From: a virus
DNA: 23,335 bases
Reading direction: 5' to 3' (one strand)
Virus record (IMG/VR): IMGVR_UViG_3300020411_001284
Coordinates: 1-23,335 of that record
A program made the position numbers and the translations under genes. This document shows, piece after piece, positions 5,444-22,285 of this stretch; positions within the stretch are counted from its first letter, which is position 1, and every line of letters begins with the position of its first letter. The notes beneath the pieces were generated by a model. The model did no database searches, was not told where the DNA came from, and worked only from the letters and a program-made list of their open reading frames with translations.

Positions 5444-6040
5444 TTATTTTTCTGATAAATCAAGAGATTCGTTGTTCATTTTGATGAATTTCCCTGGATT
5501 TCCGTACCAAAGCTCGCCAGGTGGGACAGATTCCCTTAATACTGTATTAGCACCAATAACTGAGCTTTCCCCTATATCTACCCCTGGCATTAGGGTTACA
5601 TTGATCCCTATAAGTACATTATCGCCTATTGTACCCCCAGGTTCTTTAATGTTGGTAGCGTACTTCTGTGGCCCTTTGTGGACCTTATTTGTCTGGAAAA
5701 AAGATGCTGACATTATTACATTATTACCTATAACTGCATCCTGTGTGATACCACATAAGGAACCTATAATACAATCATCACCTATTTTGGCTCGTTCTCT
5801 GACATCTCCACCAAACCCTGATATCTGTGTCCTTTGTCCTATAACTACATCTTCTCTGAGCCAAACATAATGTCCAATTTTAGACCCCCTGCCAATTTCC
5901 ACACCTCTGTCAATAACACAGAAAGGTCCGATTTCAACATCGACTCCTATATGAGTTTCTTTGTCTACCCAGGCTGTTGGGTGGATACCTTTTCCAGTAC
6001 GTCTTCGGTCTTTCCATCTGTGGAATTCATAGTCTTCCAT
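5444..6040 (-). CDS. left-handed beta-helix (hexapeptide) acyltransferase
   Basis: From about residue 18 to 175 the protein consists of hexapeptide repeats of the form [IV]-G-x-x-[AVSC]-x (for example IGVDVEIGPFCVIDRGVEIG and IGDNVLIGINVTLMPGVDIG), which build a left-handed beta helix. The end VPPGELWYGNPGKFIK is the usual closing of sugar O/N-acetyltransferases. These trimeric enzymes transfer acetyl or acyl groups from CoA or ACP to sugars or amino sugars. The 198-aa length is normal. A GAGGAG stands 10 nt before the ATG, which lies 76 nt inside the preceding gene. A role in acetylating a surface or virion glycan, alongside the window's glycosyltransferase and UDP-sugar dehydrogenase, is inference. 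Confidence 0.85.
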   Translation of the reverse strand: MEDYEFHRWKDRRRTGKGIHPTAWVDKETHIGVDVEIGPFCVIDRGVEIGRGSKIGHYVWLREDVVIGQRTQISGFGGDVRERAKIGDDCIIGSLCGITQDAVIGNNVIMSASFFQTNKVHKGPQKYATNIKEPGGTIGDNVLIGINVTLMPGVDIGESSVIGANTVLRESVPPGELWYGNPGKFIKMNNESLDLSEK

Positions 6041-6254: not shown

Positions 6255-6773
6255 TTATTTATTAATAATTTTCTCCTTGCATTCATTAAAGGTAATATCA
6301 AACATACTAAATTTTAATAATACTCTTTCTTTTGAATGACTTGGCACTCCATGTCTTTTTTGTGTATCTATTAATGCACAATTATAATTTATAAGACCTA
6401 ATCCGTCAAATTCTATAGGACCATACTCATCAGATAAAACAATATTTACTGCTGATAATGTTCCTGTATCTGCGTGCATTGGAACAGATGTATTTGCTTC
6501 TTGTTTGTAATATCTAGGTCTAATATCTTGTGAGCCAAAAAGCTCTCTTAGTTGATCCTTTACTTTATCAACTTCCGATCCTTGTTCTACAACATGGCCT
6601 AATAACCATGTGGGTGGATTATGAAACCAATGACCCTCAGGTATTTTGCTGACACCTTGTTGTTCAGGACCTAGGTCATTAAATGGGTGGAAATTCACAG
6701 ACTCCATTTCACTAATTAATTTATCTTTGTCGTAAGTTAAATTAATATCATATAAACAATCACTTCTTTCCAT
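6255..6773 (-). CDS. 2-oxoglutarate/Fe(II)-dependent oxygenase-like protein
   Basis: A 172-aa protein with the double-stranded beta-helix metal triad: H100-x-D102 in PMHADTGTLSAVN, distal H141 in KRHGVPS, and R150, nine residues later, to bind the 2-oxoglutarate carboxylate. The pattern is that of 2OG-Fe(II) oxygenases, which hydroxylate or demethylate proteins, nucleobases or small molecules with O2. Such genes are common in marine T4-like phages, with mostly unknown substrates. The ribosome site is weak and the ATG overlaps the end of the upstream gene by 14 nt, so translation is probably coupled. It belongs to the late-promoter block that begins at the two-TM gene. Confidence 0.78.
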   Translation of the reverse strand: MERSDCLYDINLTYDKDKLISEMESVNFHPFNDLGPEQQGVSKIPEGHWFHNPPTWLLGHVVEQGSEVDKVKDQLRELFGSQDIRPRYYKQEANTSVPMHADTGTLSAVNIVLSDEYGPIEFDGLGLINYNCALIDTQKRHGVPSHSKERVLLKFSMFDITFNECKEKIINK

Positions 6774-9098: not shown

Positions 9099-10140
9099 CG
9101 GATACTTCTTCTCCAACCATATCTACTGACCCTATAGTATATCTTTTCTGTATCCAGTCAGTAAATGATTTCTGTTGTAAAATAGGCAACCAAAAGTCTT
9201 TAGACTCTGTATCCTTTAATCTAACTTTAGGCTCAGGAAGTATCTCACCTGTTTCAGGATCTGCCTTCTGATACCAACCATTACTAGGTTTAATTACATG
9301 TCCAGACTCTAATGCCATTTCTAACAAACCAGACCATTTATGTATGCCTTTCTCCCAAGACACTTCAACAGGTATCTTAGACTTCTCTCTAACAAACCTA
9401 GACTTTTCTACATTAATTACAAATTCATAACCTGTAACTTCTGTTCCTGTCTTTTGTTGCCTTCTGCCAATAATATAAATGTTATCTGCAGAATAATAAA
9501 CACCTGTTCCACCACTAACAACATCTTTAGGAAACAATCCTATCTCTTTATATGTGTGGTTAACTACAACAGCAGGTATATCTTTAATTGTTAAGTGAGG
9601 AGTAATCATTCTAAACAAGGATTTCATTTGTTTAGCTCTTGTCATGTCTGCTACACTTTTACCATCAAGAGCATCTTCAACTTCTTTTTTACTTGCCAAG
9701 TTACCTACACTATCAACAATAATCATAACATGATCGCCTCTTTCAATACCATTTAACTGTTGCATGGAATCATGTTTTAATTGTTCAACATCTGTAATAG
9801 GTGTATGTACTACTCTATCAGTATCTATTTCAAATGTTTCAAAATAAGACTGAGGAGCACCAAACTCACTATCATAGAATAAAATAACACCATCATCATA
9901 CTTGTCTAAATAAGACTTTGCCAACAACATAGCAAACGCTGTCTTAAAGTGTTTACTAGGTCCTGCAAATACAGTAAGTCCTGGTGTAAGTCCACCATCT
10001 AATTTCCCACTCAGTGCAACATTAACTGCTGGTACTGAAGTTTGAATTAGATCTTTAGAATTAAAAAACTTAGATTCAGTTATAATATCTGTTTCTCTAA
10101 TCGTGGAATTTTTCTTAATCCTGTCTATTAGATTTGCCAT
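9064..10140 (-). CDS. uvsX: UvsX RecA-like recombinase
   Basis: Strand-exchange recombinase of T4-like phages, acting with UvsY and gp32 in recombination-dependent replication and repair. The 358-aa product has Walker A GPSKHFKT (60-67), very close to the GPSKSFKS I recall from T4, an acidic segment ILFYDSEFG, Walker B-like VMIIVDSVGNL, and the DNA-binding loops near KKEVEDALDGKSVADMTRAKQ. The ATG at 10140 follows AGGAGAAAAG, whereas the open frame extends to 10167 without support. The start lies 26 nt inside the UDP-sugar dehydrogenase gene, and a sigma70-like promoter lies inside that gene about 50 nt upstream. The acidic C-terminus (EEVSDEDIQEEYEKV) is typical. Confidence 0.95.
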   Translation of the reverse strand: MANLIDRIKKNSTIRETDIITESKFFNSKDLIQTSVPAVNVALSGKLDGGLTPGLTVFAGPSKHFKTAFAMLLAKSYLDKYDDGVILFYDSEFGAPQSYFETFEIDTDRVVHTPITDVEQLKHDSMQQLNGIERGDHVMIIVDSVGNLASKKEVEDALDGKSVADMTRAKQMKSLFRMITPHLTIKDIPAVVVNHTYKEIGLFPKDVVSGGTGVYYSADNIYIIGRRQQKTGTEVTGYEFVINVEKSRFVREKSKIPVEVSWEKGIHKWSGLLEMALESGHVIKPSNGWYQKADPETGEILPEPKVRLKDTESKDFWLPILQQKSFTDWIQKRYTIGSVDMVGEEVSDEDIQEEYEKV

Positions 10141-10915
10141 CTTTTCTCCTAATTTTATTAGCTGCAAGTGCAGCTTCCATAATGTTACTACTATAGCACA
10201 GACTTGAACTATGTGTCAAGTCTTTTGGTAAACAAGTTCCACCAAATCCATATTGTCCATCAGGACCTGGAACTTGCCAATGTGTACCTAATGTTTCATC
10301 TTCCATAAAGAACTCTCTAATGTCTGGATAATGTAAATCATATACATCACAAATTTCTTTAAACTCATTTGCCAAACCTACATTAACTGCTAGTGTAGCA
10401 TTTCTAAACATTTTAATTGCTGAGGCCTCTCCTGGATTAACAACCCATACTCTTTTATCAAATATGTTGGATAACCACATAACAAAATCATGATGATTAC
10501 CTGGTGTAGCACCAACAAGAATAGGAAGATTTGTGTCTAATACATCTTCTTCCCAATGTTTTTCTCTAAGAAACTCTGGCATAATAACTGCGCCATATTT
10601 TTTAGTTAACATTAATGCCTGATCAGGACCAACAGTACTTCTTATAACAGGTATAACAGTACTAGCACATGATCTTGTAGATAAATCGTTCAGGACTTTT
10701 TCAACAATACTTATGTCTAAAGTCTTCCACCCACCTAAGTCTGTAGGAACACAAACAAAAGCATATTGAATACCTGACCAATTTTCTATCTCATATCCTT
10801 TATCAGGATCATGGATTTGTATATCAGTTCCTTCGTAGAATGTATCTAATAAAAGCTCAGTAGCTTTACCTACGAATCCGTGTCCGATGATAGCAATTTG
10901 TTTATCTGTTCCCAT
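10115..10915 (-). CDS. short UDP-glucose/GDP-mannose dehydrogenase family protein
   Basis: NAD-dependent UDP-sugar dehydrogenase family. The N-terminal Rossmann motif is IIGHGFVGKA (GxGxxG, 11-16), followed by FVCVPT, PEFLRE and the catalytic cysteine motif GFGGTCLPKD with C228. Full-length enzymes have about 390-450 residues; this one ends at 266, soon after the catalytic loop, so the C-terminal UDP-binding domain is missing. The catalytic residues are kept, which argues against decay, and the gene simply ends where uvsX begins. Similar short forms may exist in marine phages. It may oxidise a nucleotide sugar to a uronic acid in a larger complex or have another substrate. Its ribosome site is weak. 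Confidence 0.82.
   Translation of the reverse strand: MGTDKQIAIIGHGFVGKATELLLDTFYEGTDIQIHDPDKGYEIENWSGIQYAFVCVPTDLGGWKTLDISIVEKVLNDLSTRSCASTVIPVIRSTVGPDQALMLTKKYGAVIMPEFLREKHWEEDVLDTNLPILVGATPGNHHDFVMWLSNIFDKRVWVVNPGEASAIKMFRNATLAVNVGLANEFKEICDVYDLHYPDIREFFMEDETLGTHWQVPGPDGQYGFGGTCLPKDLTHSSSLCYSSNIMEAALAANKIRRKDGKSNRQD
10190..10219 (-). promoter_or_regulatory. sigma70-like promoter for uvsX, with dyad
   Basis: Minus strand TTGACA, 18 bp, TATAGT (or CTATAG at 17 bp), inside the 3' end of the dehydrogenase gene and about 50 nt before the uvsX start. An 8-bp inverted repeat (AGACTTGA / TCAAGTCT) spans from the -35 box into the spacer. Confidence 0.6.
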
Positions 10916-11164: not shown

Positions 11165-11264
11165 CTTCTCTCCAAAAATTATTTTCAAAACCTAAATCTA
11201 TTGCCCAAAAGACAACCCAATTTACTAAAATACATACTCCAAATATTACCCAACCTGTCATCAT
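11145..11264 (-). CDS. 39-aa single-pass membrane peptide
   Basis: Starts MMTGWVIFGVCILVNWVVFW: one membrane helix (about 4-22) followed by a charged tail with FENNFWREDETREK. AGGAG lies 6 nt before the ATG, which shares its A with the TAA of the SET-domain gene (TAATG). It ends 20 nt inside the next gene. The arrangement strongly supports a real gene. Function unknown; inner-membrane location likely. Confidence 0.65.
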   Translation of the reverse strand: MMTGWVIFGVCILVNWVVFWAIDLGFENNFWREDETREK

Positions 11265-11596
11265 TATTGTTCTCCTATAATGCCATCGTAACCTTTGAAT
11301 CTATAATAAACAGTAAGTTCTTCTCCTGCTTTTATAGGTTTAACTGCATATAATGTTCTATCACCTGCTTCTGTGGTAATAAAACAATTAGGATCATTAC
11401 TGTGATTAATGAATCCTCCTAAGGGCGTCCTTATCCATTCATGTCTATCTCTACTATGTACCAAGACATGTGTTTCTCCAAATACTGTTCCAGCATCAAA
11501 TGCTTGTGCTGCATGTAATCCTAATCCATCTATTTTACTAGACTTTATTGTTAGTCCATCTGGTAATGGTCTATATGTGTCCATATCCCACGTCAT
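11264..11596 (-). CDS. SET-domain protein (putative lysine methyltransferase)
   Basis: The 110-aa product has the SET-domain order: GLGLHAA (24-30, S-adenosylmethionine loop), AGTVFGE, then GFINHSNDPNC (61-71, the NHS/PN motif that forms the pseudoknot), and IKAGEELTVYY (88-98, with the conserved GEEL and catalytic Tyr). It would transfer methyl groups from SAM to a lysine of a protein. It is near the minimal SET size and lacks pre- or post-SET zinc modules. The ATG follows AGGA by 3 nt; a second ATG at 11584 is possible. It is flanked by tiny membrane-peptide genes just downstream of gp43. The target (phage or host protein) is unknown. Confidence 0.8.
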   Translation of the reverse strand: MTWDMDTYRPLPDGLTIKSSKIDGLGLHAAQAFDAGTVFGETHVLVHSRDRHEWIRTPLGGFINHSNDPNCFITTEAGDRTLYAVKPIKAGEELTVYYRFKGYDGIIGEQ

Positions 11597-11751: not shown

Positions 11752-14246
11752 CCGAATAAATCCTCCAATGTTGCTTGTGGTTCTGTATGCCAACCAATAG
11801 GTTTTAAAATATTGTCCAACGGATCTACAAATGCCTTCTGCCATATTGTATCATAGTCAACATACTTTTCTAATTCAAATTCCGTTGGTAACTTTCCTAC
11901 AAATGCAATAGTATTTTCTCCTATTACATTTGGCTCTTTCAAATAAACAAATTTAATCTTATCACCTTCTTGTATTTTCTCATACTTCATTTTAAGATTA
12001 AGTTTATCTACATAATAATTATATAACAAACCACCCCTAACATGGATAGGGCAACCTTTAGTGTAAATATCTGCTCCACTTTTATATTTAAACATATTAT
12101 TACACCCTCGAGGAAATGCTATTTCCTCTACTGCTTTGTCATTAAACTCTTTTCTAGTGTTCTCTATAAACGAATGTAAAGTGTCCTCATCACTTGTTAA
12201 TATTAATCTAACCGCCTCCTTTAGAGAGTCTCTAATAGGGCCAGGAGTACTACTTCTTACAATTTCTAAACCCATAACCTTTAGTTTAGGTTCTTTAAGT
12301 CTTAGTCCTTCGTCATCATGTACATTTAAGGCATATCGTTTTTTAGCAACAAACACACCTTTGTCTGCTATAATTTCTCGTTTAAAAACTAATTTATGAG
12401 CAAACGCATTTGTGTAATTGGCAAGTTTTGTCATTGCCTGTTCAATTGCTGGTTCTATCTTTTCTGTTGCAATCTTGTCAATTAGATCAATTGTTTTTTC
12501 CTTACCTTTGTCAGGGAAGAAGTTTTCAACCATATCCTTCAATGTAACATAACAAGAATCAGTATCAGAATAAAAAGAATAAATTTTATCTTCCGTGCCA
12601 CATACTTTGTTAACATAATTATCTAATGCCTTTGCTGTGTCTCGAATAACCAATTGCCCTGTCATTGTAATACCTTCAGCAATCCTATCATCATAGAATC
12701 TAAAGTACTGATTCGCTAGGGCACCATATAAACTGTTTAATTGAATCTTTCTTGCCATCTGGAAATTATTATATTTACTAATTTCATTCTGATAAACTTT
12801 AGCACCTGTTTCCTGGAACTTCCTTTGTGATTCCTGCATTAGTTTTTTGTATCTCAATCTATCATCAAAAAACTTCTGTACTATCTCAGGAAATAAACCT
12901 TGTTTCTCTCTTGTGTAGCAAGTGCCATTAGCTGCCATGGCATAGTTCTTTTCTTTTAACTTGTCTAACTTATACCTTTCTAACAAGTCGTCAACTTTAA
13001 CATCATAAGTATAACCACTTACAATAGTTTCAGGACTCATATTGTACTGCATAAGAATAGAAGGATACAGACTTGTAGCATCAAAACTAGCAACCCAGTC
13101 ATAACCACCAGGTTCAGGTTCTTGTACATATGCCCCTTCGATTTGTCTATCCTTTCTTCCACCACCTTGATGAATAACAATTTTCTTCTCCCATAGGTGA
13201 TTATATAATAAACTATCCCAGGTTCTAACTGCTGAGAATACATCATTATAATTACACTTAGCGTCGTATGTCATTGTAATAGCAAGTTCAATAAGTTTCA
13301 TTTTATCTTCTAACTCATCAACAAGAACTGTGTCAACAATGTTATACTCTACAAACCTATTCCAATCTTTCTCATAAAACTCTTTAAATGTTTCAAAACC
13401 AGATTCTAGTTTTTTATGACCTAGTTCTGTTTGTGCAATAAAGTCTAATTTATAACTCTCTCTTGTAACATAAGTAAACTTCTTATATAAGTCTAAATAA
13501 TCTAATTGTGCAACACCTACTATCTCATAGGCAGTCATTTCCCTTTGTTGGAATTTAACATTACGTCTTTGGACAATGCCAAATGGAGAATATTTTTTGT
13601 GTTCATTCTCTCCTAGGACTGCTTCTGTTCTTGCTAACAAATAGGGTATATCAAATAACTGACTGTTCCAACCTGTAATAATATCAGGAGTATTATCTCT
13701 CCACCAACCTAGGAAATTTGTAAGTAGTTCTTTCTCATCTTTACAATCAATATATTCTATATCTAAATGTTTTGTATCTTCACCTGGAGTAAACTCCCCG
13801 AGTCCGAAGGTTGTTATCTTTTTGGTGTTGTTATTTTGAAGTGTGATAACTAACATCTTCTCGCTCGGGGAGTCTACATTCGGAAAACCATGTTCCGAAG
13901 TCGTCTCTATATCAATAGAGTAAACCTGAATTTGTTTAGCATCCCATTGTATTTCACCGGGATAGTTTTCTGTTATGTATTGATAGCCATAATAGTTTTG
14001 GCCATATATTGGAAAATTGTCTACGTCTTTGTATCTATCAAAAAAGGCGGTTGCCTCTTTGTTTGTCTCGAATTGGATAGGCGACACAGAGTCACCATAA
14101 ATTGATTTATAGTCTGAGGGTTCATTTGATTTTACAAACAGGGTTGGGCGGAAATCACGTCTTGCGGTAAAACGATGTCCGTGTTTGTCAACTCCACGAA
14201 CCAAAATCTTGTCACCATAATGTCTTGCATAAGTATAAAAAGTCAT
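11748..14246 (-). CDS. 43: family B DNA polymerase, T4 gp43 type
   Basis: The replicative polymerase of the phage, with proofreading. The exonuclease domain holds SIDIET (110-115, Exo I), GWNSQLFDIPYL (192-203, Exo II) and YNIVDTVLVD (301-310, Exo III). Polymerase motif A is FDATSLYPSI (388-397), motif B ARKIQLNSLYG (498-508), and motif C FYSDTDSCY (558-566) carries the two metal-binding Asp. The C-terminus (LEDLFG) is a clamp-binding type peptide, which would contact gp45. At 832 aa it is slightly shorter than T4 gp43, similar to cyanophage forms. No intron or intein is seen. A separate sigma70-like promoter lies just upstream, and RegA, encoded upstream, may repress its translation as in T4. 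Confidence 0.97.
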   Translation of the reverse strand: MTFYTYARHYGDKILVRGVDKHGHRFTARRDFRPTLFVKSNEPSDYKSIYGDSVSPIQFETNKEATAFFDRYKDVDNFPIYGQNYYGYQYITENYPGEIQWDAKQIQVYSIDIETTSEHGFPNVDSPSEKMLVITLQNNNTKKITTFGLGEFTPGEDTKHLDIEYIDCKDEKELLTNFLGWWRDNTPDIITGWNSQLFDIPYLLARTEAVLGENEHKKYSPFGIVQRRNVKFQQREMTAYEIVGVAQLDYLDLYKKFTYVTRESYKLDFIAQTELGHKKLESGFETFKEFYEKDWNRFVEYNIVDTVLVDELEDKMKLIELAITMTYDAKCNYNDVFSAVRTWDSLLYNHLWEKKIVIHQGGGRKDRQIEGAYVQEPEPGGYDWVASFDATSLYPSILMQYNMSPETIVSGYTYDVKVDDLLERYKLDKLKEKNYAMAANGTCYTREKQGLFPEIVQKFFDDRLRYKKLMQESQRKFQETGAKVYQNEISKYNNFQMARKIQLNSLYGALANQYFRFYDDRIAEGITMTGQLVIRDTAKALDNYVNKVCGTEDKIYSFYSDTDSCYVTLKDMVENFFPDKGKEKTIDLIDKIATEKIEPAIEQAMTKLANYTNAFAHKLVFKREIIADKGVFVAKKRYALNVHDDEGLRLKEPKLKVMGLEIVRSSTPGPIRDSLKEAVRLILTSDEDTLHSFIENTRKEFNDKAVEEIAFPRGCNNMFKYKSGADIYTKGCPIHVRGGLLYNYYVDKLNLKMKYEKIQEGDKIKFVYLKEPNVIGENTIAFVGKLPTEFELEKYVDYDTIWQKAFVDPLDNILKPIGWHTEPQATLEDLFG

Positions 14247-14272
14247 AACAACACCAATTTATTCATACTGTA

Positions 14273-14301
14273 ATTATAGGCTCTTACGAACCTAGAGTCA
14301 A
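14273..14301 (-). promoter_or_regulatory. sigma70-like early promoter for gp43
   Basis: Minus strand TTGACT, 17 bp, TATAAT, placed between the nuclease stop codon and the polymerase gene. The spacer (CTAGGTTCGTAAGAGCC) resembles that of the other early promoters and has an imperfect dyad (GACTCT / AGAGCC). Confidence 0.8.
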
Positions 14302-14703
14302 TTATAATTCTTTAACTCTGGTCCTATTGCGCAAGTGGCCTTCTGCTATTTCTGCTTTACTTGCACCATGGTATGAAACTGCATGATGTTTTAATATCAT
14401 AAGTTCATTTATATTTGTTTTGTCATCTAGACTAAGAAATTCACCGAGGATTCTTCCGTATTTACCTTTTGAGTCAAGCCTCGTTTTGAGTATAGCTCCA
14501 TCTTTAAGTTGTTCTGTGATGAACGCCTTTGCCATAAGTCCATACTTCTTTTCTTCGAGGTCACGGGTTCTACTTTCCGGGGTGTCAATTCCGTATAACC
14601 TAATTCTTTGTTTCTTGAGCCATACACCGAAGCCCAGGTCGATATCCACATCTACTGTATCTCCGTCTATAATTTTGACTACATTAATTCTATATTCATA
14701 CAT
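14302..14703 (-). CDS. staphylococcal nuclease-like (thermonuclease) protein
   Basis: A 133-aa OB-fold nuclease. VVKIIDGDTVDVDID holds the metal-binding D20/D22 region, RIRLYGIDTPESR carries R35, D40 and E43, and KYGRILGEF carries R84. These match the catalytic set of staphylococcal nuclease (R35, D40, E43, R87), so it should be active with Ca2+. It has no signal peptide, unlike secreted forms, so it would act inside the host, possibly on host DNA or RNA for nucleotide scavenging. The ATG directly follows the TAA of the Sm-like gene, with AAGGA 6 nt upstream. Small nucleases of this type are known from marine phages. Confidence 0.88.
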   Translation of the reverse strand: MYEYRINVVKIIDGDTVDVDIDLGFGVWLKKQRIRLYGIDTPESRTRDLEEKKYGLMAKAFITEQLKDGAILKTRLDSKGKYGRILGEFLSLDDKTNINELMILKHHAVSYHGASKAEIAEGHLRNRTRVKEL

Positions 14704-15036
14704 TTACTTTCCTTCGTTTAATATTTTTTTATTTATAAGTTCAGGCTGTATGATACCTGAGCCATATCTTTTGTTATACTCGTTCTTCATTTGAACTTCT
14801 GGCTCGTATAACGAAACAACATGGGTAGGGAAAATAGGAACTTTATGTTCCTTTGCGAAGGGTGCATAAGGAGCAAGTCCCACGCCAAATTCTGTTTCAG
14901 AATCTCCCTTAGGTTGCATGAATATAATTGCAGGTTTTGTTAATATCAAAAACTGTTTATCTTCAATATCAGCCTCTGATACATCTGCTATTAATTCTTC
15001 TCCTGTGGTTAATTTTACTATCTGAACGTTTGACAT
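14704..15036 (-). CDS. Sm-like (LSm-type) phage protein
   Basis: A 110-aa beta-rich protein starting MSNVQIVKLTTGEELIADVS. The pattern (K-L-x-T-G-E-E-hydrophobic-I-A, then FLILTKPAIIFM, and YGSGIIQP near the end) is that of a conserved T4-like marine phage protein with an Sm-like beta barrel, from memory. Role unknown; RNA binding or a virion role are both possible. AAGGAG precedes the ATG. It lies between Hsp20 and the nuclease. Confidence 0.7.
   Translation of the reverse strand: MSNVQIVKLTTGEELIADVSEADIEDKQFLILTKPAIIFMQPKGDSETEFGVGLAPYAPFAKEHKVPIFPTHVVSLYEPEVQMKNEYNKRYGSGIIQPELINKKILNEGK
14730..14737 (-). promoter_or_regulatory. possible late promoter TATAAATA inside a coding end
   Basis: TATAAATA on the minus strand, 26 nt before the nuclease ATG but within the last codons of the Sm-like gene, in a Lys/Ile stretch where A/T runs are expected. 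It could be coincidental. Confidence 0.25.
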
Positions 15037-15054
15037 GCTCCTTATCTCCTATAA

Positions 15055-15510
15055 TTATTTAATTTCTATCACTTGTGGTTTCTGAGATTCTGGAATAACA
15101 TTTTCTAATGCTATTGATAGAATACCATCAACATATTCTGCAGATCTAATTTCAATAGTATCTGCAAGGTTCCAAGCTCTTTTAAAGTTTCTGCCACCTA
15201 TACCTTTGTGTATATAGTCTGCTTCTTCTTTTTCAGTTTGGATTCCTTCTACGAGTAGAAGCGAACCTTTTGTATCGGTTGATTCTTTTCGTATAGTTAT
15301 CTCATCTTTCTTAAAACCTGATACGGCAATTTCAATAAGATAATTTTCTTCGTCCACCTTTTTAACATTGTATGGAGGATAAGAACTTTGGACACCAGGA
15401 TTAGATGCTGTGATAGCATCAAACACTTTGTTAAATCCAATAAATTCTCTCTCTATTTGTGGAAATGTCGAGACAAAATTGTCCCAATTTGTAGTTTTTA
15501 CTCTAACCAT
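15055..15510 (-). CDS. Hsp20 family small heat-shock protein
   Basis: A 151-aa alpha-crystallin-domain chaperone that holds unfolding proteins in large oligomers. The domain runs from YPPYNVKKVDEENYLIEIAV (about 44-64) through FKKDEITI, then KGIGGRNFKRAWNLADTIEI and the closing AEYVDGILSIALENVIPE, the A-x-x-x-G-x-L motif. The IEIK end may replace the I-x-I tail. Hsp20 genes are a hallmark of marine T4-like phages. AAAGGAG precedes the ATG by 6 nt. A possible promoter lies in the 112-nt gap upstream. Confidence 0.93.
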   Translation of the reverse strand: MVRVKTTNWDNFVSTFPQIEREFIGFNKVFDAITASNPGVQSSYPPYNVKKVDEENYLIEIAVSGFKKDEITIRKESTDTKGSLLLVEGIQTEKEEADYIHKGIGGRNFKRAWNLADTIEIRSAEYVDGILSIALENVIPESQKPQVIEIK

Positions 15511-15564
15511 TTTTTTCTCCTTTATTAAGCGAGTTATTAAACTGCAGACCCATAATTGGCATCT

Positions 15565-15593
15565 GCTATAATATATATAATACTTTTATTCAA
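15565..15593 (-). promoter_or_regulatory. possible promoter upstream of hsp20
   Basis: Minus strand TTGAAT, 17 bp, TATAGC in an A/T-rich run, within the gap between the radical SAM gene and hsp20. The match is modest, so this is tentative; it lacks the conserved spacer of the other early promoters. Confidence 0.35.
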
Positions 15594-15622
15594 AATTACA
15601 AGTTCTTTTGGTATAATTTACC

Positions 15623-16882
15623 CTAAAATTTTACATCAAAGGTTTTGTTAAAATCTGTGCCTCTTCTTATATCATGTTCTTTTACAAAGTTCCAAAAATC
15701 TTTTCTATGTTTTTCTAGTTCTTCACCTTCGAATCTATTTGCCTTTATCCACTCTACAGACTTCTGAAATTTTACAACCTCTCCTTCTGTAAACTGAGGA
15801 TAGGTTTTCATTGATTTTAATCCTTCTTCCATAATACTTATATGAGTATCGTCGGCAATTTGTGCTGAGAGGTGTTTTGGATCTACCATATAAGGCATGT
15901 CTATTGTTAGATGAGGAAAGGTTTGTTTCATCTCTGCCATTTTAAAAATGAATTCTTGTATATTGAATATAGATAAGAAATTAAATGTACACATGATACC
16001 TACTTCTATTCCATTAGCTAATATTCTAAGTAGGTTTTCTTCAAATTGATCTACTTTTAATCCATGTCTAATATACTCTGCTTGTTTCCCCCATGAATCT
16101 ATACTGGCATATATTCTAGTATTAGGTATATCTTTTGCTTGGTTAATATATTTTTGTACTCTTTCTTTCGTAACCATAAGATTAGAATTACAATGGAATG
16201 TCAATCCTTCTCTAGGATTTGCCTTAACATATTTTAGAAGTTTATATGTATTCTTATCTAATAAAGGCTCTCCTCCTGTTACTCTAAGAACAAATAAATG
16301 TTCATATGCCTGTGGAAACCATTTCCAAAACTTATCTACATAGGGAGAGTTTTCTATTTGAGGATTATCTATAACATTATAGTCCTCAGATAGTTTATAA
16401 GGACCATGCTCTTGTATTTCTTTTTCCCATGAAGTACTAAACACAGGACCACAATAACTACATGACATTTGACATTTATTTGTGAAAGATATTTCTAAAT
16501 ATTTAGGATACACATAATCTAGTCCTGCGTCTGTTGCTTCTTTGACTATATGTCTATTATGTTTAAAAAATTGAGCTGCAAGTGTTTGCCTATCTGATAT
16601 CTCACCAAGATCCTCTACTTCCCAACAATAAGAGCACTCTGAAGGTCTGCTACCTTGCAACATCTCTGCTCTTTTTTCTATTTTTTGAGGTGTGTTATGT
16701 AAGTCAGAGTCTAAAGGAATTTTCTGTGTAGGACAATGATAACAGGAATGACTTTGCCCTGTTCCTAAGTGCATTTCTAAATGATACCATTTTAGTACAC
16801 AGAAACCAGGCCCTACTTTATCCTGTTCGTCTTTGATAAGTTGGAGGGCTTCTATTTGATTTTTATTTAGCTTTCTTTCCAA
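15623..16882 (-). CDS. radical SAM protein, twitch-type
   Basis: A 419-aa enzyme with the radical SAM cluster motif C137-x3-C141-x2-C144 (CQMSCSYC) and TGGEPLL (202-208). N-terminal C28, C47, C50, C83 and C86 (CYHC, CSYC) suggest a second iron-sulfur or metal site, as in the twitch/SPASM-related group. It would use SAM to start radical chemistry on a peptide, sugar or small molecule; the substrate is unknown. No precursor peptide is obvious next to it. The start is TTG inside the end of regA (20-nt overlap) with no clear ribosome site; translation may be coupled to regA, and the next ATG is far inside. It lies between regA and hsp20. Confidence 0.85.
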   Translation of the reverse strand: MERKLNKNQIEALQLIKDEQDKVGPGFCVLKWYHLEMHLGTGQSHSCYHCPTQKIPLDSDLHNTPQKIEKRAEMLQGSRPSECSYCWEVEDLGEISDRQTLAAQFFKHNRHIVKEATDAGLDYVYPKYLEISFTNKCQMSCSYCGPVFSTSWEKEIQEHGPYKLSEDYNVIDNPQIENSPYVDKFWKWFPQAYEHLFVLRVTGGEPLLDKNTYKLLKYVKANPREGLTFHCNSNLMVTKERVQKYINQAKDIPNTRIYASIDSWGKQAEYIRHGLKVDQFEENLLRILANGIEVGIMCTFNFLSIFNIQEFIFKMAEMKQTFPHLTIDMPYMVDPKHLSAQIADDTHISIMEEGLKSMKTYPQFTEGEVVKFQKSVEWIKANRFEGEELEKHRKDFWNFVKEHDIRRGTDFNKTFDVKF

Positions 16883-17285
16883 TATTGTACTTGGGGATTA
16901 ATTCCCATTCACCCTTCTCTTTAAACGATATAATTTTTATTTGGCTTAAAGGTGCGTAGTCTAGTTCTTGTTCTGTAACTATGTCTACAAGACCCCAATC
17001 GGATAATAGTTTGCCTATAGTATTTCTTCGTTCTAAATCATTGTCTTGGAAGTCAGCTTCCTTGCCATCTAAAGCAAAAAGTTCTTTGAAGTGTGTTATA
17101 AAGTATCTACCTTTCTTATGTAAGATGTGGCAGGACTGATAAAGCACTTTGTCCTTTTTTGAAGCTACTCCAATTCTTGACAATGTTTCACGAACTTTAA
17201 GAAAATCCTCTGGATCTTTTAGTGAAACTTCTAAGGGTGTGTACCCTGGATAGTCAATATTAAAGTAATTCTCTTGATCACTCAT
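16863..17285 (-). CDS. regA: RegA translational repressor
   Basis: Homologue of T4 RegA, which binds early mRNAs near their start codons and blocks translation. The core KDPEDFLKVRETLSRIG ... KDKVLYQSCHILHKKGRYFITHFKE is nearly identical in pattern to T4 RegA, and WGLVDIV and EWELIPKYNIG follow in the same places. At 140 aa it is longer than the about 122 aa of T4 because of an N-terminal extension before EVSLKDPEDF. Gene order 45-44-62-regA matches T4. The ribosome site is weak; a TATAAATA lies 47 nt upstream. In T4 it targets gp44, gp45, gp62 and itself, which are all in this window. Confidence 0.95.
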   Translation of the reverse strand: MSDQENYFNIDYPGYTPLEVSLKDPEDFLKVRETLSRIGVASKKDKVLYQSCHILHKKGRYFITHFKELFALDGKEADFQDNDLERRNTIGKLLSDWGLVDIVTEQELDYAPLSQIKIISFKEKGEWELIPKYNIGKKAK

Positions 17286-17331
17286 TTCAATACGTCTCGT
17301 TTATTCTATATAAATTTTGGTTATAATACCT

Positions 17332-17339
17332 TATTTATA
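17332..17339 (-). promoter_or_regulatory. late-promoter-like TATAAATA before regA
   Basis: TATAAATA on the minus strand overlaps the TAA of gp62, about 46 nt upstream of the regA ATG. It could let regA and the radical SAM protein be made late, independent of the clamp-loader transcript. Confidence 0.4.
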
Positions 17340-17796
17340 TTTTGCCACCTTTAGACGTACTCAAATGTAGCTTAATTAAGTCTATATCTGTCTGAGAAAG
17401 CAGATTTAATGCTTCTTTTGCCTTAAAAAAGCTATATCCGAAGAATTTTTGTATTGTTTCTATATTCTCTTCTTCAGACTTTAACCATTTGTTATATCGT
17501 TTGGCTTTTCTTACCACACTCTTAAGAAAGTCATATTGTAACTTTTTATCCAAGTGAGGTCTTGCATTCATTTCATTTCCTGCAATAATAGTGTCTTTTC
17601 CAAAACCCATTGCTCTATTAACGATGAAAGCATTGTATTCATTTTCTGTTCTTTCATCTACAATTAAGTTTTCTTTAGTATAATTGATGCTATTAGCAAA
17701 ATCGAAGGGAGATATCTTTTTCAGTTTTTCCTGAAACTCTTCCTCATTGATTTCTTCTACAGGATCGCCAAATCCTTCTAATATACTATCGCTCAT
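17335..17796 (-). CDS. 62: clamp loader small subunit, gp62
   Basis: Homologue of T4 gp62, which with four gp44 subunits loads the gp45 clamp. The 153-aa chain shows the family segments SPFDFANSINYTKENL, YNAFIVNRAMGFGKDTI, NEMN and YDFLKSVVRKAKRYNKWLK. It has no ATPase motif, as expected. It is shorter than T4 gp62 (about 187 aa) and has an acidic N-terminal tail. The ATG overlaps the TGA of a 25-aa membrane peptide (ATGA), and no ribosome site is seen, so translation is coupled. In T4 gp44 and gp62 are directly adjacent; here three microgenes separate them. Confidence 0.92.
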   Translation of the reverse strand: MSDSILEGFGDPVEEINEEEFQEKLKKISPFDFANSINYTKENLIVDERTENEYNAFIVNRAMGFGKDTIIAGNEMNARPHLDKKLQYDFLKSVVRKAKRYNKWLKSEEENIETIQKFFGYSFFKAKEALNLLSQTDIDLIKLHLSTSKGGKI

Positions 17797-17870
17797 ATTG
17801 AACTAATTATTAACATTATTATAATAAAAAATACTGCTACTATTTTTATGTCTAAATCGTTGTGGTCCAT
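17793..17870 (-). CDS. 25-aa membrane micropeptide
   Basis: MDHNDLDIKIVAVFFIIIML and then five further residues: an acidic N-terminus and one hydrophobic helix. Its ATG shares bases with the TAA of the preceding gene (TAATG), its stop overlaps gp62 (ATGA), and AAGG is upstream. It may serve mainly to couple ribosomes into gp62, or act in the membrane. Confidence 0.5.
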   Translation of the reverse strand: MDHNDLDIKIVAVFFIIIMLIISSI

Positions 17871-18034
17871 TAAAAATGCCTTAAAACACCTGCTATAATA
17901 AAAAAGCAGGTTATGAAATTTACACCTACGACTATTGTTCTAAGGATAGCCACCATATCAGCTTCCTTTGAATCATCGCTAGCTTTTTCTCCTAAAGATA
18001 AACACCACAATCTCCATAATTTACTTAAAGTCAA
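17870..18034 (-). CDS. 54-aa membrane protein with TTG start
   Basis: The frame starts TTG, 7-8 nt after AAGGA, and reads MTLSKLWRLWCLSLGEKASD, an acidic linker, then a membrane helix (VVGVNFITCFFIIAGVL) ending RHF. I have a vague memory of similar small proteins near the clamp-loader genes of marine T4-like phages, so I judge it real. It overlaps the ribbon-helix-helix gene by 14 nt and hands over to the 25-aa peptide by TAATG. Function unknown. Confidence 0.6.
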   Translation of the reverse strand: MTLSKLWRLWCLSLGEKASDDSKEADMVAILRTIVVGVNFITCFFIIAGVLRHF

Positions 18035-18185
18035 TGTATTGTCCTTCTTTTAAAATACTGTAACCTTTTAATAATAGTTCAGTTACAGTGGTTTCCCTTA
18101 TTTTTGCTTCTTCCTTGATTTCTTCCTTCAATGAGGAAGGTAGACGAATTATGATATTTGCGTCTTTTGACTCTTTCTGTGCCAT
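18021..18185 (-). CDS. small ribbon-helix-helix-like protein
   Basis: A 54-aa protein whose segment ANIIIRLPSSLKEEIKEEAK followed by TVTELLLKGYSILK fits the beta-helix-helix pattern of Arc/CopG-type DNA-binding dimers. The ATG directly follows the TAA of gp44. No strong ribosome site is seen, so translation is probably coupled to gp44. It could be a phage regulator; the dyads in the early promoters are conceivable targets, but that is only inference. Confidence 0.6.
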   Translation of the reverse strand: MAQKESKDANIIIRLPSSLKEEIKEEAKIRETTVTELLLKGYSILKEGQYIDFK

Positions 18186-19124
18186 TTACTTAAATTCCAC
18201 ATTCGCCATAATTTCTGTCAAACATGCCGTCAAGTTAATTTCCTGATCTGCAACGAATGCTGCTTTATACTGATAATCTGCAATTAACAAGACTAACTGA
18301 GGAATACTCTTAATTTCAGGAAGTAGAGTATCGTATATCTGTCTAAATATACCCTGAGGGTCAGTATCTACATTATTTACGACCCACTGTCTCATCTTTT
18401 TCCAATCCTTTTCCCTTAGACTCTCTATAAGGGCCTTAGCATTGATTTCCTGAAAGTTACTTAATATACCCTCATCAATATTATTCCCTGCACTGTAACG
18501 CTGCAGTTCATTTATAACCCTTCTATAATCGGGAAAATACTTGTTTAGGAGCTCCGCTAGTACCCTCTGGTTATACTCTACACCCTCGGTATCTAGTATG
18601 TACTCCATCCTTTTTAGGAACTTAGAGGCTAATGTAGGGCGATCTGAGGGTGCTAACTTAAAGTCTATAACAGTAGTCCTGCTATGTAGAGGGTCTATTA
18701 ACCTATTAGCATAGTTACATGTAAATATAAATCTACAGTTCTCAGAGAACGTCTCTATGAACCCTCTAAGGGCTGGTTGTACACTATCCCTATTCATATA
18801 GTCTGCCTCATCTAGGATAACAACCTTAGTCTTACCCTCAAAAGAAACAGCACTAGCAAAGTTTCGTATCTTAGTTCTGAGGGTATCTATTTGTCTACCT
18901 TCATCACTACCATTAATAATAATGTAATCACAACCTAGCTCATTACATAATGCGCGTGCAATAGTTGTCTTACCTGTTCCTGCACTACCACTTAATAATA
19001 GATTAGGAACCTCTCCCTTTAATATAAATTGCTTAAACTGTTCTTTTACCTCATCAGGTATAATACAGTCATCTATTGTTGTGGGTCTATATTTCTCGAC
19101 CCATAAGAATTGTCCAGGTTCCAT
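18186..19124 (-). CDS. 44: clamp loader large subunit, gp44
   Basis: AAA+ ATPase that, with gp62, opens and loads the gp45 clamp on primed DNA. The 312-aa protein starts with WVEKYRP, has Walker A GSAGTGKT (46-53), Walker B VVILDEAD (101-108), and a sensor 1-like FIFTCNY. The usual SRC arginine-finger motif appears as HSRT (C replaced by T, R retained). The C-terminal helical domain follows. GGAG lies 10 nt before the ATG. Length matches T4 gp44 (319 aa). Confidence 0.97.
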   Translation of the reverse strand: MEPGQFLWVEKYRPTTIDDCIIPDEVKEQFKQFILKGEVPNLLLSGSAGTGKTTIARALCNELGCDYIIINGSDEGRQIDTLRTKIRNFASAVSFEGKTKVVILDEADYMNRDSVQPALRGFIETFSENCRFIFTCNYANRLIDPLHSRTTVIDFKLAPSDRPTLASKFLKRMEYILDTEGVEYNQRVLAELLNKYFPDYRRVINELQRYSAGNNIDEGILSNFQEINAKALIESLREKDWKKMRQWVVNNVDTDPQGIFRQIYDTLLPEIKSIPQLVLLIADYQYKAAFVADQEINLTACLTEIMANVEFK

Positions 19125-19197: not shown

Positions 19198-19872
19198 TTA
19201 TCTGATTTTCTCCTTAACAGAAGTCGAATCTGAAAGTTCAAGATCTATATGCTTACCTTCTGCCTCAGCGATAGCATCGTCTAAGTCACCAAAGGTTTCA
19301 AGTTTATTACTAACAGGCTCATCATTAAGGCTAGTAGTAACAGCTGGCCAACCAAAGGCTTTAACATTGTCCAGAACATTTTCTGGTTTACTTTTTTCAT
19401 AAGGATCTCCTTCAATGTCGTCTCCAAATCCTTCTTCAACACCTGACCAGACAAGTTCTTTGTCATCATATATGCCAGCATATCTCCATGACCTTACACC
19501 AAAACCTAGGTTGTCTTTTCTAACATCCATACCTAATTTAATAGTAAAGTCTGCACTACCATCTGGTAATAGTTTAACATTAACAAGGTTCTGATCTATT
19601 GCCCACTCGTTCATAACGAATGTATCATTAACACTAACGCAATAAATATCATCTATTCCTGCTAGTCTAAACTCATGATATAAAGCTTCAAAACCTGGTA
19701 ACTGTTGACCAGAACATGTAGGGGTAAACGCTCCAGGCAATCCAAATACAACAATCCTTTTTCCTTCGAATAAATCTATAGAATTAAGATCAATCCACTT
19801 GCTTACGCCGTCAATTGTCTTAACATGTTTCTTAAAAATTGCTGGAGGTATTTGTGGGTTTAATTCACTCAT
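19198..19872 (-). CDS. peroxiredoxin (Prx5-like)
   Basis: Thiol peroxidase of the AhpC/TSA superfamily. The motif PGAFTPTCS (46-54) with peroxidatic C53 and the context FGLPGAFTPTCSGQQLPGFE is the Prx5 signature; no second resolving Cys is obvious in the core. It would reduce peroxides using a thiol donor, presumably host glutaredoxin or thioredoxin. At 224 aa it is about 60 residues longer than a simple Prx5; the extension is acidic (DDIEGDPYEKSKPENVLDN ...) and contains no glutaredoxin CxxC. The ATG at 19872 follows AGGAGG; the frame to 19896 is not used. It sits oddly inside the clamp and clamp-loader operon, between gp45 and gp44. Confidence 0.9.
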   Translation of the reverse strand: MSELNPQIPPAIFKKHVKTIDGVSKWIDLNSIDLFEGKRIVVFGLPGAFTPTCSGQQLPGFEALYHEFRLAGIDDIYCVSVNDTFVMNEWAIDQNLVNVKLLPDGSADFTIKLGMDVRKDNLGFGVRSWRYAGIYDDKELVWSGVEEGFGDDIEGDPYEKSKPENVLDNVKAFGWPAVTTSLNDEPVSNKLETFGDLDDAIAEAEGKHIDLELSDSTSVKEKIR

Positions 19873-20047
19873 CTGTTTCCTCCTGAGAAAATACATCTAA
19901 CTCACCCTTCATTACTTTTCTAACGAGTGAGATAGCTGGGTTAGGGCGAGTAAATATATACTCAACTGTCTCACCAAATTTGTTGAATTCAACAATCCAA
20001 CCGTTTGTCGCCTCTCTTAAAGAGACCTCTAACTTTTCTTCATCCAT
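19865..20047 (-). CDS. unknown 60-aa acidic protein
   Basis: Starts MDEEKLEVSLREATNGWIVE, with an alternating strand pattern and a helix (AISLVRKVMKGE). AAGGAG lies 5 nt before the ATG. It is directly downstream of gp45 and overlaps the peroxiredoxin start by 8 nt. No family recognised, though similar small proteins next to gp45 exist in marine T4-like phages as I recall. Confidence 0.65.
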   Translation of the reverse strand: MDEEKLEVSLREATNGWIVEFNKFGETVEYIFTRPNPAISLVRKVMKGELDVFSQEETDE

Positions 20048-21220: not shown

Positions 21221-22285
21221 TTATAAAAGGTAACTTTCCATGTCATCTGGTAAGTCCTCAAACTCTAATAATCCTAACCCTTCATATCCTGGTCTAACTT
21301 CATCAGTCAACAATCCTATTCTTTTAATATTAGGAATGACTCTTTTTAAGAGATGCTTTCTTACAATTTTATATTGCTTACCTATTTCGTCTTCTTCAAA
21401 TTGGCATGCGTAATCATGTGCATCCTGTGGATCAAATCCAAACTGTTTATAAAACCCTGGTCCAAAACCAATTCTATTAAGTAATGTTGTGCAACATTCT
21501 AAAGCATACCCTGCTCTATAATTTATCTCATCTTCAGTTAGAGTCTTGAGATAATCACCTAAATAATTAATACCAAAAGTTATATGCCTTGCTTCATCTT
21601 GTAATATGTAATCCATTATCTGTGCTAAGAGAGGGTCATTGGTATTGTTTCTACATATTTGAAATGTACTTACTGCTAATCCTTCCACCACTATCTGTAC
21701 AATAATAAACTTTAAATCCCACTCTTTAGATGATAATGCAATATCAAATATGTTTTTTACACCTTCTCCAATAGGGTAGACACAACCATATCTTTCTGCA
21801 ATATATCTGCTCATAGTTTCTGCATGTCTTGCTTCGTCAGCAGCTTGTTGTGCTGCAAATAATTTTGCTTGGTATGTTGGTGCACAGCTTACAAGTTGAC
21901 CACAACATATTGCACCCATTTGTTCTCCATGCAAGATAGATGATAACTGCCACAGGTTTTTATGTTTTTGAAATTCTCTCTTATCTTCATCAGAAAGCTC
22001 TCTATATGGTCTATAATTAAACCAAAAAGGATCGTCTCCCTCAGGCCATTGTCCTAATACAACAATGTCTCCTGGATGTTCTGTATCCCACTCAATATCC
22101 TTACTAGGATTCCAGGCTCTCTCCTTACCCAACTCATATATTTTTCTAATACGAGTATCCTCATTTCTATAATCCCAATTATAAAAAGAGTCCAAAGGTG
22201 TACTAAAAGATTCTGCTAAATCTGAATCGTTCTGAGATGGAAACTCCTGAAAACTATCAGGAGTATTGACTTGGGTTATTTTCAT
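21221..22285 (-). CDS. ferritin-like diiron oxygenase-type protein
   Basis: A 354-aa helical protein with a complete class I diiron carboxylate set: E121 (LHGEQMG), E151-x-x-H154 (DEARHAE), E201 (VVEGLAV) and E231-x-x-H234 (QDEARHITFG). The 30/50/30 spacing is that of a four-helix bundle like AurF-type N-oxygenases, R2 subunits and R2-like oxidases. An N-terminal segment (ELGKERAWNPSKDIEWD) resembles those of AurF-like ferritin-superfamily proteins. No R2 radical tyrosine context or R1 partner is apparent here. It probably activates O2 to oxidise or desaturate an unknown small molecule or protein. The ATG is 5 nt after TATAAATA and lacks a good ribosome site. Confidence 0.85.
   Translation of the reverse strand: MKITQVNTPDSFQEFPSQNDSDLAESFSTPLDSFYNWDYRNEDTRIRKIYELGKERAWNPSKDIEWDTEHPGDIVVLGQWPEGDDPFWFNYRPYRELSDEDKREFQKHKNLWQLSSILHGEQMGAICCGQLVSCAPTYQAKLFAAQQAADEARHAETMSRYIAERYGCVYPIGEGVKNIFDIALSSKEWDLKFIIVQIVVEGLAVSTFQICRNNTNDPLLAQIMDYILQDEARHITFGINYLGDYLKTLTEDEINYRAGYALECCTTLLNRIGFGPGFYKQFGFDPQDAHDYACQFEEDEIGKQYKIVRKHLLKRVIPNIKRIGLLTDEVRPGYEGLGLLEFEDLPDDMESYLL

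Follow-up and report, generated by a model that had tools for sequence, protein, structure and literature searches.

A predicted N-terminal-twitch radical SAM enzyme in an exchangeable slot between regA and hsp20 of T4-like viruses

Introduction

What would a radical SAM enzyme do among the replication genes of a T4-like virus, and on what would it act? We examined this question in a virus record of 23,335 bp (the window), whose minus strand carries replication genes of the T4 type. Its DNA polymerase finds its best match in the phage collection in Synechococcus phage S-MbCM6, at 48.9% identity. A preliminary description of positions 15623-17285, a range that takes in both the radical SAM gene (rSAM) and regA, had drawn attention to this gene. 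The features referred to below are as follows.

15623..16882, minus strand: radical SAM enzyme with a predicted N-terminal twitch domain (rSAM; NF033640, N_Twi_rSAM), 419 aa; from NCBIfam, PF04055, AlphaFold2 model and alignment
16880..16882, minus strand: TTG at which rSAM starts, formed by bases two and three of a RegA Ile codon (ATT) and the first base of Gly
16625..16801, minus strand: predicted N-terminal twitch-like domain, C28 to C86; from cysteine tallies, Pfam SPASM on paralogues and the model
16451..16474, minus strand: radical SAM motif CxxxCxxC, C137-C144
16863..17285, minus strand: regA, translational repressor, upstream edge of the slot (PF01818, phrog_242; Pfam Translat_reg 2.1e-45)
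15511..15622, minus strand: rSAM-hsp20 spacer with the hsp20 ribosome site; a near-identical spacer follows the replacing gene in loci L138 and L139
15055..15510, minus strand: Hsp20, downstream edge of the slot; from profile matches
10115..10915, minus strand: short UDP-glucose/GDP-mannose dehydrogenase-like protein, with homologues directly before rSAM in distant viruses; it occurs without rSAM too

Results

Family, fold and the N-terminal cysteines

By its sequence, the protein is a true member of a known family that has no stated substrate. NF033640 (twitch domain-containing radical SAM protein) matched it with 301.8 bits against a cut-off of 170 (E 7.9e-90, profile positions 3-392 of 398), and the radical SAM superfamily profile PF04055 matched with 37.4 bits (cut-off 29.5). 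Its CxxxCxxC motif consists of C137, C141 and C144. The profile comparison confirms the preliminary assignment as a twitch-type radical SAM enzyme. The remark that no substrate is obvious was also correct, and in the searches made the protein proved orthologous to no known enzyme whose substrate is defined.

An AlphaFold2 model was built on an alignment of 56 sequences, all of which (56/56) match NF033640 at E 1e-5. The model has a mean pLDDT of 91.6 and a pTM of 0.86, and adopts the radical SAM barrel fold. Its matches among solved structures were SkfB, BlsE, DesII, anSME and MoaA (Z 14.6 to 13.3). The peptide maturase SkfB ranks first (Z 14.6, rmsd 3.6, 227 aligned residues) and is tied with the sugar enzymes BlsE (Z 14.0) and DesII (Z 13.8), so the structure search does not pick a substrate. 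A search of solved structures with the single rSAM sequence gave nothing useful. Full-length matches among predicted viral structures (TM 0.80), the best 18 rows of which are uncultured phages or unnamed entries, indicate that this architecture extends beyond the regA-linked virus group.

Five cysteines (C28, C47, C50, C83 and C86) lie ahead of the motif, as the preliminary description had pointed out. We aligned 95 family rows, full-length or nearly so, from which identical proteins had been dropped and among which many are closely related. C86 and the three motif cysteines are present in 95/95 rows, and C28 and C47 in every row with letters there. C83 is replaced by Asp in 6 of the 42 regA-linked rows and is Cys in all remaining rows. 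C50 is Cys in 39/41 regA-linked rows with letters and in 11/11 sister-group rows, and in 0/42 other paralogues, whereas C28, C47, C83 and C86 are all kept in 42/42 of the latter. The five extra cysteines are thus real but not unusual, since four of them occur in all 42 other paralogues aligned. Homologues without an extra cysteine, which had been named as possible counter-evidence, were found for C50 only, apart from the six Asp residues at C83. In the regA-linked rows, C50 is lost in two and C83 in six, never together, leaving four N-terminal cysteines in 41/41; C50 may stand in for C83. From these patterns and the family's name, C28, C47, C83 and C86 are candidate ligands that mark its predicted N-terminal twitch (auxiliary Fe-S) domain, and C50 is particular to the subclade.

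In the model, C28 is followed by a hairpin (34-38/43-45), C47, a helix (65-75) and the pair C83 and C86. Pfam SPASM (PF13186) matches the same N-terminal domain in 5 of 6 other family members tried (three viral, two bacterial), and gave no match in the window rSAM nor in L123:13561-14961. The twitch likeness is thus judged from cysteine order, secondary structure in the full-length model, and Pfam matches in paralogues. The extra cysteines, at 28-86, precede the motif at 137-144 and do not form a C-terminal auxiliary domain like that of SPASM/twitch enzymes of the BtrN, MoaA and SkfB type. Sequence and model together support an auxiliary twitch domain that would sit before the barrel, not behind it.

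A TTG start inside regA

The rSAM ORF overlaps the end of regA by 20 nt, regA stop included. TTG is the only ATG, GTG or TTG between the upstream in-frame stop and M37, which lies inside the conserved domain, and it is kept in 32/32 loci of the first viral search, with the frame open to a stop or contig end in all of them. These observations bear out the TTG start inside regA that had been proposed. The TTG is read out of ATT-GGA (Ile-Gly of RegA) and spans the third base of the Ile codon, so conservation of that base tests the start. We compared 68 regA loci of distinct sequence, two of which are on contigs that end too early to score. Among the matches listed, the Ile codon is ATT in 41/43 loci with rSAM compared with 9/23 without (12 ATA, 2 ATC). 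The Fisher p value of 9e-7 comes from rows that are related and not phylogenetically independent, and RegA identity is lower in most of the rows that lack rSAM (64-78% vs 83-100%). The two ATA exceptions with rSAM, L143 and L144, are loci in which rSAM and regA do not overlap and an in-frame TTG lies downstream. The codon is ATA in L138 and L139, which share 99% RegA identity with the window and have no rSAM in the slot. On this comparative evidence, TTG is well supported as the genuine start of rSAM.

The longest Shine-Dalgarno core ahead of rSAM is 3 nt. The gene therefore has no ribosome site of its own, as had been stated, but this is not special, since 8 of the 18 window gene starts tested (some of them mechanical), regA included, likewise have no core longer than 3 nt. 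Ribosomes finishing regA would probably re-start at the TTG within the last RegA codons.

An exchangeable slot between regA and hsp20

From a RegA search, the best 80 of at least 598 relatives were taken, and slots of distinct sequence that were complete from regA to hsp20 were counted. Among the matches listed there are 62 such slots: 34 contain rSAM plus a 2OG-Fe(II) oxygenase, nine rSAM alone, four the oxygenase alone and 15 neither. The oxygenase is thus missing in 9/43 rSAM slots, and the window belongs to this type, with rSAM alone. The 15 slots with neither gene comprise, among the same matches, seven with a fatty-acid desaturase (a family named by Pfam for 7/7), two with a 177-aa gene (L138 and L139) and six empty ones, which span at most 118 bp and have no ORF of 90 aa. 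Slot oxygenases were called by tblastn with the proteins of three relatives; Pfam confirmed 3/3 of those tried (L007, L195 and L197; PF13640), and that of L007 belongs to phrog_61.

A spacer nearly identical to the window's borders the replacement in L138 and L139. The 177-aa gene there resembles a 2OG-Fe oxygenase by eye only: PDB matches are at chance level, and neither Pfam nor PHROG matched the L138 copy. Adjacent replication genes are retained in relatives whose slot is empty or differently occupied, and such exchange at the regA-hsp20 junction makes rSAM a cassette rather than an obligate RegA partner. The junction is an exchangeable slot, and rSAM is not a fixed part of replication.

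After repeats of the same contig were removed, 80 rSAM loci remained, comprising 64 with regA directly upstream, 15 not adjoining regA and one on a contig that starts inside the gene. The idea that the gene always follows regA holds for these 64/80 loci in the virus group, but 15/80 are not beside regA and regA relatives without rSAM exist, including the two that are 99% identical in RegA. In a distant virus (L137), another CxxxCxxC protein (L137:4430-4705) follows regA with a short overlap and is cut by the contig end; it has no Pfam or PHROG match. The dehydrogenase-like gene lies between gp44 and gp62 in the same virus.

Viral and bacterial relatives

Among the 15 loci not beside regA, 12 show more than one family copy, several of them near-duplicates. 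Seven array-type records among 12 virus records each contain 5-7 matches above the cut-off (6-8 with weaker ones). The 170-kb record of L007 (G001) combines a regA-linked copy with an array of four copies above the cut-off and one below, at 12645-18826. This array is preceded by a desaturase and neighbours an acetyltransferase, a ferredoxin, a carbamoyltransferase, an Asp-hydroxylase-like protein just under its cut-off, and a protein that is methyltransferase-like by eye only, with no Pfam or PHROG match. The ferredoxin gene is small and of the 4Fe-4S type (L123:8579-8911), a possible electron donor. The array of another record, G007, has an NAD epimerase, a carbamoyltransferase and a second dehydrogenase-like gene as neighbours. 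A conserved 75-84-aa protein (KKYIHVN..HKIRAN) was observed inside one rSAM array (L081:7628-7855) and about 1.7 kb after a single rSAM (L080:8021-8275); none was seen by eye in the window ORF list.

A homologue of the window ORF 10115-10915 lies directly before rSAM in 12 of the 15 loci not beside regA, several being near-duplicates, and in the G001 array this dehydrogenase-like gene and its rSAM are both missing at the same place. It is found in 13/17 records with rSAM, and the other four (G029, G030, G034 and G035) end within about 5 kb after rSAM. As an obligate partner of rSAM it was rejected, being present in 8/13 rSAM-lacking records (84% and 73% in two, 46-50% in six), none of which has an NF033640 member above the cut-off.

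Phylogenetic analysis placed the 42 regA-linked rows together with 11 others (one single copy and the array copies that follow the dehydrogenase-like gene) in a 53-row clade (SH-aLRT 98). The same sister grouping was recovered in a smaller tree of chosen rows (support 97/96), which also separates an exclusively viral clade of 16 rows (100/100) from the 11 bacterial rows sampled; the deep joins of this tree are unsure owing to long branches. The sole phage-collection matches of rSAM were KVP40-type radical SAM proteins of 16 Vibrio phages (22.9-23.9%), which were treated as another group. Three array paralogues used as queries reached at most two Vibrio phages (K566 and K567; about 25%) and a marine virus record of single-cell origin (24%); one array paralogue gave no match. 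The cultured SAR11 phage HTVC008M has no match to the window rSAM at 1e-5. In stretches 1-49000 and 98000-147284, its annotation contains no radical SAM gene and lists carbamoyltransferases and UDP-glucose dehydrogenase.

The GTDB genome collection gave one match, L102 (PCBP01000083.1). This contig is assigned to a Flavobacteriales MAG but has the phage order gp44-gp62-regA-rSAM-hsp20, and is probably a mis-binned or host-associated phage contig. In the class of MAG G039, 15/395 genomes have an NF033640 match above the cut-off, one of them being G039 itself, the MAG with the phage contig. Nine bacterial neighbourhoods were fetched and eight listed. Surface-sugar genes occur in 5/8 of the latter (L241, L242, L243, L245 and L246), and L244, L247 and L248 show no glycan cluster by eye. 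Pfam named carbamoyltransferase, NAD epimerase, glycosyltransferase, UDP-glucose dehydrogenase and ABC-2 transporter among chosen neighbours, not all in each, as well as phytanoyl-CoA dioxygenase, sulfotransferase, capsule-synthesis and UbiA proteins.

Other genes of the window

Scattered over the minus strand of the window are glycosyltransferase family 2 (1280-2035), cytidylyltransferase-like (2492-2956), hexapeptide-repeat (5444-6040) and UDP-glucose dehydrogenase-like (10115-10915) genes, which possibly form a sugar pathway. Also on this strand, a 354-aa protein (21221-22285) matches AurF p-aminobenzoate N-oxygenase (Pfam 8.1e-12) and is a likely diiron oxygenase near the replication genes. 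A peroxiredoxin (19198-19896; phrog_2281) lies between the gp44 gene and the gp45-like gene, in the same place as in many relatives. By eye, a 172-aa ORF (6255-6773) resembles 2OG-Fe(II) oxygenases (HAD...H pattern) and a 110-aa ORF (11264-11596) is SET-domain-like. No RNA families were found in the window, L007 or L024, and no tRNAs in the window.

Discussion

The explanation that fits best overall, to which we give a probability of roughly 0.45, is that the gene encodes a swappable auxiliary N_Twi_rSAM enzyme between regA and hsp20, translated by re-start at TTG, with two clusters and a sugar substrate. It draws on the fact that the slot is filled by C-H-functionalising iron enzymes. A SAM-cleaving [4Fe-4S] cluster would be bound via C137, C141 and C144, and the twitch domain ahead of the barrel would hold one auxiliary cluster. 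The 5'-deoxyadenosyl radical would abstract a hydrogen from a small molecule, after which the auxiliary cluster would accept an electron, by analogy with what was proposed for BtrN. The substrate would most likely be a nucleotide sugar or a surface-glycan sugar, of the host or the virion. In most relatives, judging from gene neighbourhoods, the product may pass to the 2OG-Fe(II) oxygenase encoded next; that 9/43 rSAM slots lack this oxygenase counts against the explanation, as does the tie between peptide and sugar enzymes among the solved structures.

That rSAM tailors a sugar or glycan is in itself a tentative proposal, which we put somewhat below even odds. It is favoured because the arrays lie near sugar and redox genes, because surface-glycan genes surround five of the eight bacterial loci, because the regA-linked copies are sister to the array copy behind a UDP-glucose-dehydrogenase-like gene, and because the window itself has glycosyltransferase, cytidylyltransferase-like, hexapeptide and dehydrogenase-like genes. 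Against it, the window's clade groups with no bacterial row, and three of the eight bacterial loci lack a glycan cluster. Moreover, the dehydrogenase-like neighbour is about 5 kb away in the window, so that the regA-linked copy is not beside glycan genes, and it also occurs in rSAM-lacking records. Carbamoyltransferase is found in 1/12 regA-group records, G001 alone (10 with rSAM and 2 without; lengths 31-170 kb).

A wider version of the sugar proposal, which we regard as doubtful, is that marine T4-like viruses carry a multi-enzyme pathway building a radically tailored surface sugar, one step of which has moved into the regA-hsp20 slot. Such a pathway would hold N-terminal-twitch radical SAM enzymes, 2OG-Fe oxygenases, desaturase, sugar-nucleotide dehydrogenase and carbamoyltransferase. 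If this were true, slot swaps would alter the surfaces of infected cells or virions chemically, for instance to prevent superinfection or escape recognition.

The slot desaturases could instead belong to the same pathway as rSAM, which would then act on the host envelope by modifying one of its lipids, lipid carriers or fatty acids. The replacement by desaturases in 7/62 slots among the matches listed, the desaturase before the G001 array and UbiA prenyltransferases in two bacterial loci all point this way. The annotated bacterial loci, however, are richer in nucleotide-sugar and glycosyl genes than in lipid genes, and the tetraether lipid synthase Tes is only a weak cross-match (19.6 bits vs a cut-off of 450), so a lipid substrate appears unlikely.

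The preliminary description had suggested that a protein or small peptide is modified and that nearby microgenes encode candidate substrates. A maturase of the RiPP type, with the product of a viral microgene or a host protein as its target, would agree with the presence of peptide maturases among SPASM/twitch enzymes (as stated in part of PMC6231123), with SkfB as the top structural match, tied as it is with sugar enzymes, and with the small genes just upstream of gp62 (17793-18185). None of the three known microgenes tracks rSAM, however: the two larger ones are both absent in 7/51 intervals with rSAM and both present in 2/18 without, and the 25-aa one was found in 7/51 intervals with rSAM. 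The microgenes were thus rejected as obligate substrates, and that suggestion is not upheld. In addition, no Pfam or NCBIfam match to a peptide-binding domain was obtained in the window rSAM, the residues ahead of C28 form one helix in the model, and sugar and redox genes make up most of the annotated neighbours in the arrays and the bacterial loci. We therefore consider peptide or protein modification improbable.

A role in nucleotide metabolism or phage DNA modification would explain the place among replication genes, between regA and gp43. It is consistent with weak sequence cross-matches to MoaA, viperin and QueE-like nucleotide enzymes, and with a single rSAM copy in G006 (L080) that lies among nucleotide-metabolism-like genes by eye. 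It has little probability in our view, given that the slot is emptied or refilled where the neighbouring replication genes persist, and that none of the neighbourhoods read, in arrays or in bacteria, is a replication module. Finally, that rSAM is a passenger cassette without a lasting role and heading for loss is highly improbable: it would fit that two relatives sharing 99% RegA identity lack rSAM in the slot and that the window has no slot oxygenase, but catalytic and cluster residues persist in copies as little as about 54% identical, losses of C50 and C83 never coincide, and both the TTG and the open frame (to a stop or contig end) persist throughout the first-search loci.

If the glycan reading is true, the ocean's many viral radical SAM genes would be linked to envelope or virion chemistry. 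The virus set offers a compact natural experiment, in which almost identical viruses occur with and without rSAM and a single slot alternates between a radical SAM enzyme, 2OG-Fe oxygenases and a desaturase. The case also documents a predicted auxiliary-cluster domain ahead of the barrel, and a start codon inside an overlapping gene whose conservation is open to statistical testing.

Comparison with known systems

Radical SAM gene sets of marine T4-like viruses have already been published (parts of PMC5332604, PMC7029224 and PMC7150976). Radical SAM cassettes are described in pelagimyophages and in the T4-like TARA_ERS488813_N000010, which has 12 rSAM genes (parts of PMC7029224 and PMC5332604). 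These viruses resemble the present group in being marine and T4-like and have many radical SAM genes, placed partly in a host-recognition cluster according to the same portions of these papers. The accessible portions of the main text of PMC7029224 and PMC5332604, supplements aside, make no mention of the regA-linked copy, the slot or the family name. In the open-licence literature, no paper was found with the NF033640 short name, or with its description together with 'phage', and, supplements aside, no published account was found of the regA-hsp20 slot, the exchange of enzyme types or the TTG test. The family and the marine viral radical SAM gene sets are therefore known, and the slot, the exchange and the TTG test, which did not appear in the literature searched, are apparently new.

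In the available sections of PMC6231123 and PMC9012708, BtrN and MoaA have one auxiliary site in the order Cys, beta hairpin, Cys, helix, Cys pair, and the rSAM model has the same order; this twitch layout is described there for BtrN and SkfB as well. BtrN is a twitch radical SAM dehydrogenase of 2-deoxy-scyllo-inosamine. According to PMC9012708, SPASM and twitch domains extend the protein at its C-terminal end, and electron uptake by the auxiliary cluster of BtrN is discussed there. In BtrN, MoaA and SkfB the twitch domain lies behind the barrel, whereas in rSAM it is predicted to lie before it. To MoaA there is only a short, weak profile match among solved structures (E 2.9e-4). SkfB, BlsE and DesII have the radical SAM barrel in common with rSAM at 11-14% identity, and their three substrates differ. 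Relative to NF033640 itself, the window rSAM is by sequence a full-length member, to which the viral subclade adds C50 and the place after regA.
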